Shown piece by piece: positions 48,813-50,928 of a stretch of 64,000 nucleotides of DNA. The stretch covers positions 2,305,001 through 2,369,000 of the forward strand of contig NZ_CP044227.1 of the NCBI RefSeq assembly GCF_008727735.1, given 5' to 3'. The notes beneath the pieces were generated by a model. It saw only the letters and a program-made list of their open reading frames with translations. It did not search any database and was not told the DNA's origin. Each line of letters begins with the position of its first letter. The first letter of the stretch is position 1. The position numbers and the translations under genes are program-made. The DNA comes from Flintibacter sp. KGMB00164 (GTDB lineage: Bacteria; Bacillota; Clostridia; Oscillospirales; Oscillospiraceae).

Positions 48813-49919
48813 TTGCAGGAAAAATCAAAACAAACGCCCGGACACCGGCGTCTGGGCGGCGGTGTGTGGACGGCGGCAGCCTGTCTGCTGCTGGTACTGA
48901 CCCTGTCGGGGGACCGGGCTTTGGCCGCCCCGGCCTGGGACGCCGCCGCCTGCGCCGGCTCGGTGGAGATCGGCGACACAGTCATTCCCCTGGGCCGGGC
49001 GGTGGGTATCAAGCTCTTTTCTGACGGTGTGGTGGTCACCGGCTTGTCCGATGTGGAGTCCTCCGGCGGCACTGTGTCCCCCGGACGGACCGGCGGTCTG
49101 CGGGCAGGCGATGTGATCACCCACATCAACGGCCAGCAGGTCAGCACCATCGAGGGCGTCCAGGCCCTGCTGGCCCAGCAGCAGGGGCAGCCTCTCACCC
49201 TCCAGGTCCAGCGGGAGGATCAGTCTCTCCAGCTCAGCGTCCAACCGGCCCAAAACCAGGACGGCGCCTATCAGCTAGGCGTGTGGCTGCGTGACTCTAT
49301 GGCGGGCATCGGCACCCTCACCTTCTATGATCCCCAGTCCGGCGTGTTTGCCGCTCTGGGCCACGGGATCAGCGATGTGGACACGGCTATCCTCATGCCC
49401 CTGGAAACCGGGAGCATCATGAAGGCCACGGTGTCTGACGTCAAAAAGGGGTTAAGCGGTGAGCCGGGAGAGTTGCACGGCGTGTTTGATCTCCAGCATG
49501 ACCTGGGCACCCTGTACGCCAACACCCAGCAGGGTATCTTCGGCACCCTGGATGACAAGGCGCTGGTCCAAAACGGCCAGGGCGTGGAGATCGCCTCCCG
49601 GGACCAGGTGCACACCGGCAGGGCTACCATTCTCTCCAATATTGCCGGCGACCAGGTGGAGGAGTATGAGATCGAGATTCTGACCCTCTATCCGGAGAGC
49701 AGCGGTGACACCCGCAACCTCATGATCCAGGTCACCGATCCCCGCCTGCTGGAAACGACCGGAGGAATTGTCCAGGGAATGTCTGGAAGTCCCATTCTCC
49801 AGGACGGGCGGCTTGTGGGCGCGGTCACCCACGTTCTCATCAACGAGCCCTCCCGGGGTTACGGAATTTTGGCAGAAAACATGGTAAAAACCGCCCAAAG
49901 CAGCGCAAAAGCCGCCTGA
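48813..49919 (+). CDS. spoIVB: SpoIVB peptidase
   Basis: A 368-aa serine peptidase that leaves the forespore and triggers sigma K activation. It has an N-terminal membrane/signal segment (residues about 18-38), a PDZ domain (about 85-140, [20 protein letters not shown]) and a SpoIVB peptidase domain with [12 protein letters not shown] (His) and [20 protein letters not shown] (nucleophile Ser). The start is TTG with GGGGGTG 5 nt upstream. Directly upstream of spo0A, a gene order conserved in spore formers. Confidence 0.93.
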
Positions 49920-50009: not shown

Positions 50010-50036
50010 CGTCGAACTTTGTCGAAAGATGTCGAA
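50010..50036 (+). promoter_or_regulatory. Three tandem 0A-box-like sites upstream of spo0A
   Basis: CGTCGAA (50010), TGTCGAA (50020) and TGTCGAA (50030) repeat in the same direction at exact 10-bp steps. TGTCGAA is the Spo0A recognition heptamer. They end 32 bp before the -35 box. Confidence 0.75.
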
Positions 50037-50067: not shown

Positions 50068-50096
50068 TTGCGCATACTGTCTGATTATGGTACATT
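50068..50096 (+). promoter_or_regulatory. Promoter of spo0A
   Basis: TTGCGC (50068-50073), a 17-bp spacer and TACATT (50091-50096) with TGG before it (extended -10). Confidence 0.55.
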
Positions 50097-50163: not shown

Positions 50164-50928
50164 ATGGAAGCAACCGTATCACTGTTGGTAGCGGACGCCA
50201 ACGAGGAGTACCGGCATCAATTTATCGAGATGCTCCAGGCCGAACCGGACCTACAGGTGGTGGGAGAGACCGGGGACGGACTGGTCCTGCTGGACCAACT
50301 GAAGACACTGCGCCCTGACGTAGTGGTGATGGAGATCGTCCTGGGGGGCATCGACGGTATTGAGGTGCTGGAACGGCTGTCTCAGATGGAGCTGGACTAC
50401 CGCCCCAAAATCCTGATCCTGTCCAGCTATGCCCGGGGTGGAATGGCTGACCTGGCCGCCTCTCTGGGGGCCGATCACTATATGTCCAAGCCCTGCCGGC
50501 CCAACGCAGTATGTCAGCGCATCCGCCAGCTAGCGGCTTTTGCCGCGGTCCCTAGTAATTCACAGGAGTCAGCCCGCTCCTTGGAGGCCATGGTCACCTC
50601 CATTATCCACGAGGTGGGCGTACCCGCCCACATCAAGGGCTACCAGTATCTCCGGGAGGCCATCATCCTGGCGGTAGAGGATATGGACGTCATTAACGCG
50701 GTGACCAAGGTCCTCTATCCGGAAGTGGCCAAACGCTTTGGCACCACTGCCTCCCGGGTGGAGCGTGCTATACGCCATGCCATCGAAGTGGCCTGGGACC
50801 GGGGCGACCTGGAAACCCTGCAAAAATACTTCGGCTACACTGTTTCAAACGTAAAAGGCAAACCCACCAATTCGGAATTCATTGCCATGATTGCCGACCG
50901 CCTTCAGCTTCAGCGCCGGGAAGGCTGA
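50164..50928 (+). CDS. spo0A: Sporulation master regulator Spo0A with a degenerate receiver
   Basis: A 254-aa protein. The C-terminal DNA-binding domain (about 145-250) is highly conserved ([55 protein letters not shown]). In the receiver the phosphorylated Asp (Asp56 of B. subtilis) is Glu57 (VVMEIVLGG, codon GAG at 50332-50334). Of the acidic pair, Asp11 remains but the next is Ala12; the switch Thr is Ser87; Lys109 is kept. Phosphorelay control is therefore doubtful. The ATG at 50164 follows GAAGGGAG. Confidence 0.93.

Follow-up and report, generated by a model that had tools for sequence, protein, structure and literature searches.

The spo0A locus and its genome

The window, that is the whole stretch of 64,000 nucleotides of Flintibacter sp. 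KGMB00164 DNA that was analysed, contains spo0A among sporulation genes, on the + strand at 50164..50928. The gene encodes a protein of 254 aa composed of a pseudo-receiver and a Spo0A_C DNA-binding domain, with matches to TIGR02875, PF00072 and PF08769. The score against the NCBIfam Spo0A equivalog TIGR02875 was 290 bits (cut-off 200), and both Pfam domains were complete, Spo0A_C with 157 bits and Response_reg with 65 bits. The DNA-binding domain comprises residues 144-247 (50593..50904, + strand) and is strongly conserved within the family. spo0A comes after spoIVB (48813..49919, + strand), the gene of a SpoIVB peptidase S55 that reached 371 bits with TIGR02860 (cut-off 305).

An earlier note on this DNA had regarded the place behind spoIVB as the conserved position of spo0A. 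This holds for the present gene, and the pairing is common, but it is not general. In tblastn searches with the SpoIVB of our strain a match on the same strand and at most 600 nt upstream of spo0A was obtained for 13 of 36 genus rows, 31 of 100 family rows, 31 of 48 class rows and 24 of 80 genome_contigs rows, counts in which some loci contain only about 1 kb of upstream DNA. The gene at 50164-50928 is a true spo0A orthologue under selection as a developmental regulator.

The host genome (one contig of 2.92 Mb, 97.9% complete) had a single match to the Spo0A_C profile, namely the sole full-length Spo0A, adjoining spoIVB. A second spo0A bearing Asp at the phosphorylation site, which would have spoken against the earlier note, was not found in this search of the genome. 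SpoIIAB and SigG (NF006071) exceeded their cut-offs in the same genome, while SpoIIAA and SigF, beside SpoIIAB, stayed below theirs. In a chosen set of 80 genomes SpoIVA was matched in 79 and was over the cut-off in 76; the only tested genome without a SpoIVA match (G155) belongs to the family, is 100% complete and has an Asp-type Spo0A. SigF gave matches in all 80 genomes. Because these remained below the curated cut-off in 65 of 65 family genomes, and because the best match in our own genome was SigG, the survey is weak evidence for SigF.

Active-site residues of the receiver

Codon 57, at the phospho-acceptor position, is GAG and thus encodes Glu (50332..50334, + strand). Codon 12 is GCC for Ala (50197..50199, + strand) and lies at DD2, which in true receivers binds the metal directly (PMC12632262). 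The switch Thr/Ser position is occupied by Ser87 (TCC, 50422..50424), the conserved active-site Lys is kept as Lys109 (AAG, 50488..50490), and Cys111 (TGC, 50494..50496) is found at the K+2 position, all on the + strand. Asp11 is retained and residues 60-65 read LGGIDG.

Glu57, Ala12, Ser87 and LGGIDG had all been listed in the earlier note, and the DNA confirmed them. Not all of them are marks of damage in this particular gene, however. Ala12 does interrupt the acidic pair, but none of the 140 family rows has an acidic DD2 (in one of them there is a gap), so the loss belongs to the family as a whole. The replacement of MPHLDG by LGGIDG is likewise real and family-wide; Pro at D+4 was present in 49 of 49 class rows as against 51 of 140 family rows. 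Ser87 had been counted as a departure from the norm. Since Ser occupies this position in 47 of 49 class rows, it is ordinary for Clostridia and was dropped as a sign of damage. Lys109 was conserved in 137 of 140 family rows. At K+2, 126 of 140 family rows had Cys, whereas 38 of 49 class rows had Phe. In CheY this residue affects the balance between on and off states, Phe favouring inactive forms (PMC12632262), and the section of that paper dealing with K+2 makes no mention of Cys. One may speculate that the family-wide Cys could serve as a reactive thiol or bind a ligand.

A pseudo-receiver is defined as a receiver without at least one of DD1, DD2, D, T/S and K, and DD2 is non-acidic in about 80% of them (PMC12632262). 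The Spo0A of our strain, which has lost both DD2 and D, falls within this definition. A Spo0A switched by phosphorylation would be expected to have Asp at the phospho-acceptor position, where this one has Glu57, and an acidic metal pair, of which this one has kept Asp11 but carries Ala12. The change in the pocket is specific, since 28 of the 30 receivers of the genome that exceeded the Pfam cut-off had all five active-site residues, the exceptions being Spo0A and one other. An AlphaFold model (mean pLDDT 86.8, pTM 0.52) predicted an intact receiver fold, which does not separate on from off, and in a fold search the predicted fold matched Spo0A receivers. The other exceptional receiver (L172; G000:C1:555835-556161, minus strand) sits in an open frame of 291 aa and possesses an Asp-Ser pair and Ala at the phospho site, with Thr and Lys kept.

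Distribution among relatives

The suggestion that Glu57 might be shared by a clade proved correct. In the genus, 29 of 38 Spo0A rows had Glu and 9 had Asp at position 57 (36 of the 58 genomes with a match were read, G043 and G052 being counted twice). The Glu codons were GAG in 22 and GAA in 7 rows, and Glu57 was also present in a 95%-identical relative (L021). A sequencing error or a one-off change is ruled out, because Glu is common to the genus rows and is encoded by both codons. Among 102 other genomes of the family there were 13 with Glu, 88 with Asp and one with Gly; these were drawn from 111 genomes, of which three were already in the genus set and six were left out for weak or partial best matches. 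For the family in total, position 57 was acidic in 139 of 140 rows and Asp in 97. An alignment of 121 proteins, 110 loci and B. subtilis, based on a protein search from which the best 120 of 8000 scored candidates were taken, contained 144 E, 85 D, one G, one A and one gap at this site.

Outside the family only three of 49 class rows deviated at DD2 or D, and two of these three belong to the same order. (The class sample had 125 genomes with a match; 50 rows were read, including our own genome, L229, which was dropped, and four of the same order.) Of the 56 genomes of the order with a match, five belong to the family; among the remaining 51, rows were read from 47. The five-residue rule was broken in 33 of these 47 rows, the D position being Asn in 7, Glu in 9 and Ser in one, and two Glu rows with an acidic DD2 had lost DD1 instead. 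Of the 8 rows without an acid at the D position, 5 had also lost the Lys, compared with 5 of the 39 acid rows. Rows with Asn at the phospho-acceptor position were L392, L393, L395, L406, L412, L433 and L436, several of which also lack the conserved Lys. A further family located elsewhere in the class and outside the order (f18; 17 of 19 genomes matched and read) repeats the pattern, DD2 being lost in 14 of the 17 genomes and Glu present in 4.

Evolutionary history and selection

On a FastTree phylogeny of 255 rows, calculated with both trait columns removed and with changes placed late, Asp and Glu were exchanged 17 times (about 14 gains of Glu and three reversals) and DD2 changed four times. 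The corresponding numbers in 24 bootstrap trees were 15-21 and 4-5. DD2 was missing in 50 of the 51 Glu rows of the tree, L098 being the sole Glu row with an acidic DD2. Glu is probably the late step of a wider change. Two of the eight non-synonymous single changes of GAC or GAT lead to Glu, yet position 57 was non-acidic in only one of 140 family rows, which means that the carboxylate is kept while Asp itself is not. Together with the conservation of Lys109, the acidity of this position argues for a charge pair that is maintained and against free decay. As the family members with Asp57 are also without the metal ligand, phospho-control was probably lost earlier, and more widely, than Glu57 was gained.

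As judged from substitution patterns, the Spo0A protein is still kept by selection. In comparison with L021 the receiver had a dN of 0.040 and a dS of 0.80 (dN/dS about 0.05) and the DNA-binding domain a dN of 0 and a dS of 0.97; this pair was used since dS is near saturation in more distant pairs of the genus. Mean column entropy of the DNA-binding domain was 0.48 bits in the family versus 0.84 in the class, and that of the receiver 2.0 bits in the family versus 1.6 in the broader class sample.

Phosphatase, phosphorelay and kinases

Chosen sets of 80 genomes were searched for Spo0E-like phosphatases with PF09388, a short profile that may miss divergent members. Matches over the cut-off were found in 0 of 65 family genomes (our own, which had no match, included), 0 of 50 other genomes of the order and 0 of 17 genomes of f18, but they were present in 23 of the 26 class genomes that belong neither to the order nor to f18. 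Two matches below the cut-off in the family fell inside long frames. Three of the 26 class genomes with a canonical Spo0A were likewise without a Spo0E match, so Spo0E is not strictly defining. None of 114 pseudo-receiver rows came from a Spo0E-positive genome, while 23 canonical rows did and 20 did not; the rows behind these counts are related and phylogenetically clumped, with two main lineages, for which reason a Fisher value calculated from them was set aside. Because 20 of 43 canonical rows also lack Spo0E, its loss does not go one-to-one with that of the pocket, and the idea that it is the direct partner of pocket loss was weakened. Phosphatase loss may have come first or have been permissive. 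Some clostridia in which Spo0A is phosphorylated are reported to have no clear Spo0E orthologues (PMC3533761), and a Spo0E orthologue was later studied in C. difficile (PMC11115286).

The earlier note had proposed to look for Spo0F and for orphan kinases. None of the 31 receiver matches in our genome was a stand-alone Spo0F-like receiver, the shortest open frame being 226 aa. A search restricted to the HisKA domain yielded 22 kinases, two of which had no receiver match nearby: L133 (G000:C1:1726010-1726204), preceded by a frame that by eye resembles a membrane transport subunit, and L149 (G000:C1:1637577-1637768). Kinase input into this Spo0A may therefore still exist. Direct transfer from kinase to Spo0A is known in Clostridia (PMC11210211).

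Upstream region

Three tandem boxes at 50010..50036 (+ strand) precede spo0A: CGTCGAA at 50010-50016 and TGTCGAA at 50020-50026 and 50030-50036, spaced exactly 10 bp apart. They resemble the 0A-box consensus and are therefore called 0A-like. The same arrangement was found in L021. A candidate sigma-A promoter follows at 50068..50096 (+ strand; TTGCGC, 17 nt, TACATT). It was picked out by eye, has similar counterparts in L021, L023 and L024, and was absent from the output of the promoter scan.

In the genus, the 350 nt before spo0A contained TGTCGAA in 22 of 29 Glu-type rows and 8 of 9 Asp-type rows. The figures for the remaining family were 8 of 13 (Glu type) and 49 of 87 (Asp type), and for Asp-type rows of the class 27 of 47. 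Shuffled sequences, which preserved only the single-base make-up, gave means of 0.02-0.05 matches per sequence (0.045 for the Glu-type genus rows). Since the boxes are as frequent in Asp-type rows of the genus, they are no hallmark of the Glu type. Over the whole window TGTCGAA was found four times where 4.18 were expected, a chance number; the notable feature is the regular spacing of the three boxes in front of spo0A. The spoIIA operon of the same genome was considered as a sign of a 0A regulon beyond spo0A and was given up, as no TGTCGAA lies within 2.2 kb before it. The earlier note had suggested that sporulation is controlled by the amount of Spo0A, and the tandem boxes in front of the gene would allow such control.

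Function of the pseudo-receiver

With the canonical Spo0A of Bacillus subtilis and Clostridioides difficile our protein shares orthology by TIGR02875, the order of domains and 0A-like boxes upstream, and in the fold search its DNA-binding domain was 67% identical to 1fc3_A. It differs in lacking the phospho-acceptor Asp and the direct metal ligand, in having Cys in place of Phe at K+2, and in residing in a genome without a Spo0E match. The absence of two of the five residues places it beside the pseudo-receivers or aspartate-less receivers (ALR, ARR), such as ChxR, GlnR, RitR and HP1043, as treated in PMC12632262 and PMC4395418. DD1 and Lys kept, Glu at D and the second acid lost is a common ALR pattern. 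In the present case, however, the change concerns the conserved master regulator of sporulation and extends across the whole sampled family, and the main text of PMC12632262 makes no mention of Spo0A. The genome also resembles clostridia in which orphan kinases act in a two-component scheme without Spo0F and Spo0B, in that no stand-alone Spo0F-like receiver was found, but that scheme needs a Spo0A that can be phosphorylated. Two reviews (PMC11210211, PMC3533761) treat phosphorylation of Spo0A as the step through which endospore formers must pass in order to sporulate. We found no report of a Spo0A without phospho-acceptor from this group in the open-licence literature searched, which included PMC6136694, PMC12536801 and PMC11536998.

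We consider it likely that the gene encodes a pseudo-receiver Spo0A, a true orthologue that is not switched by Asp phosphorylation and whose output is probably set by its amount. The triad of acid 57, Lys109 and Ser87 has been kept, and so have Asp11, the DNA-binding domain and the predicted fold, while the phospho-acceptor Asp and the direct metal ligand have gone. Such a Spo0A would not be phosphorylated at the canonical site. The carboxylate of residue 57 would form a pair with Lys109 and so keep the receiver in a shape in which it can dimerise on 0A boxes. Output would depend mainly on the quantity of Spo0A made, by way of the tandem boxes in front of the promoter of the gene, and perhaps also on a protein or ligand binding to the receiver. 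The history, which the tree shows in part, may have run from the absence of Spo0E-like phosphatases in the sampled order through loss of DD2 in the ancestor of the family to repeated changes from Asp to Glu, this order being a conjecture. With the metal ligand absent across the sampled family and Glu57 in our own strain, these bacteria probably decide to sporulate in a phosphate-independent way. Asp57 in 97 of 140 family rows speaks against this explanation, as it could mean that some phosphorylation takes place without DD2.

What the carboxylate does is a separate question. The earlier note pointed out that Glu at this place can mimic phosphorylation in other response regulators. If Glu57 did so, the receiver would be locked on, leaving transcription of spo0A or proteolysis alone to set sporulation. 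Glu is indeed the commonest replacement in aspartate-less receivers and can partly activate many regulators (PMC12632262, PMC4395418), the two residues expected to hold it, Ser87 and Lys109, are both kept, and its restriction to rows without DD2, with one exception in 51, looks as if it fits only after loss of the metal site. However, the change from Asp to Glu alone is often insufficient, and PMC4395418 names Spo0A as an example. Moreover, a lock would not predict the three reversals to Asp inside the Glu clade, which suggest that Asp and Glu are roughly equivalent. We therefore think a true phosphomimic rather improbable. The back-changes favour a structural carboxylate, an unphosphorylated acid needed only for dimer formation and supplied equally well by Asp or Glu, along the lines of what is reported for GlnR and RamR. 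Changes in both directions with an acid in all but one of the family rows, and the association of acid loss with Lys loss in the other families of the order, agree with this. The need for an acid in GlnR and RamR is reported in PMC12632262, but the comparison with GlnR is by analogy alone and the statement there concerns Asp, so we put a structural role forward as quite possible but tentative.

Two further readings concern the state of the system as a whole. Orphan kinases might still phosphorylate the Asp57 relatives despite their lack of DD2, the Glu type being a recent derived loss. Asp57 in most family rows, the two orphan-looking HisKA kinases and the direct transfer known in Clostridia are in line with this, but DD2, which contacts the metal directly (PMC12632262), is acidic in none of the 140 family rows and Spo0E was not found in any of the 65 family genomes; we regard persisting phosphorylation as unlikely. 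Alternatively, sporulation could be in the course of being lost and the receiver drifting. The higher receiver entropy in the family would fit, and the relative Oscillibacter valericigenes was not observed to sporulate (PMC3558957), a report that also speaks against the main explanation. Decay is nevertheless very improbable, given the stronger conservation of the DNA-binding domain compared with the class, a receiver dN/dS of about 0.05, SpoIVA matches in all but one of 80 genomes and the acid kept at position 57.

The explanation by a pseudo-receiver set by its amount can be extended to relatives, a step we find slightly more doubtful than credible. The family and much of the order would enter sporulation without Asp phosphorylation of Spo0A, having dropped the phosphatase and dismantled the metal site; the receiver would have become a phospho-independent module for dimerisation or sensing, with a new family-wide Cys next to the active site and with Glu as a recurrent end state, and f18 would have done likewise independently. 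If a large group of gut bacteria does sporulate with a non-phosphorylatable Spo0A, the entry of signals must differ there, which has consequences for the transmission of such commensals from host to host. The recurrent losses of phosphatase and metal ligand and the repeated replacement of Asp by Glu also provide a natural series in which to study how a phospho-switch is dismantled and its output kept.

Additional Spo0A-like proteins

Two near full-length Spo0A proteins were found in some genomes of the same genus: G043 (L047, L320), G052 (L314, L315) and G059 (L316). G043 has one Glu copy and one Asp copy, and contamination (3%) is possible in this genome. Several family genomes contained additional Spo0A_C proteins (L442, L443, L444, L445, L446), whose frames of about 105-155 aa leave no room for a receiver; our own genome is without them, and G118 had nine Spo0A_C matches in all. 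The short frame L442 lies directly after a frame that by eye resembles an HTH regulator.
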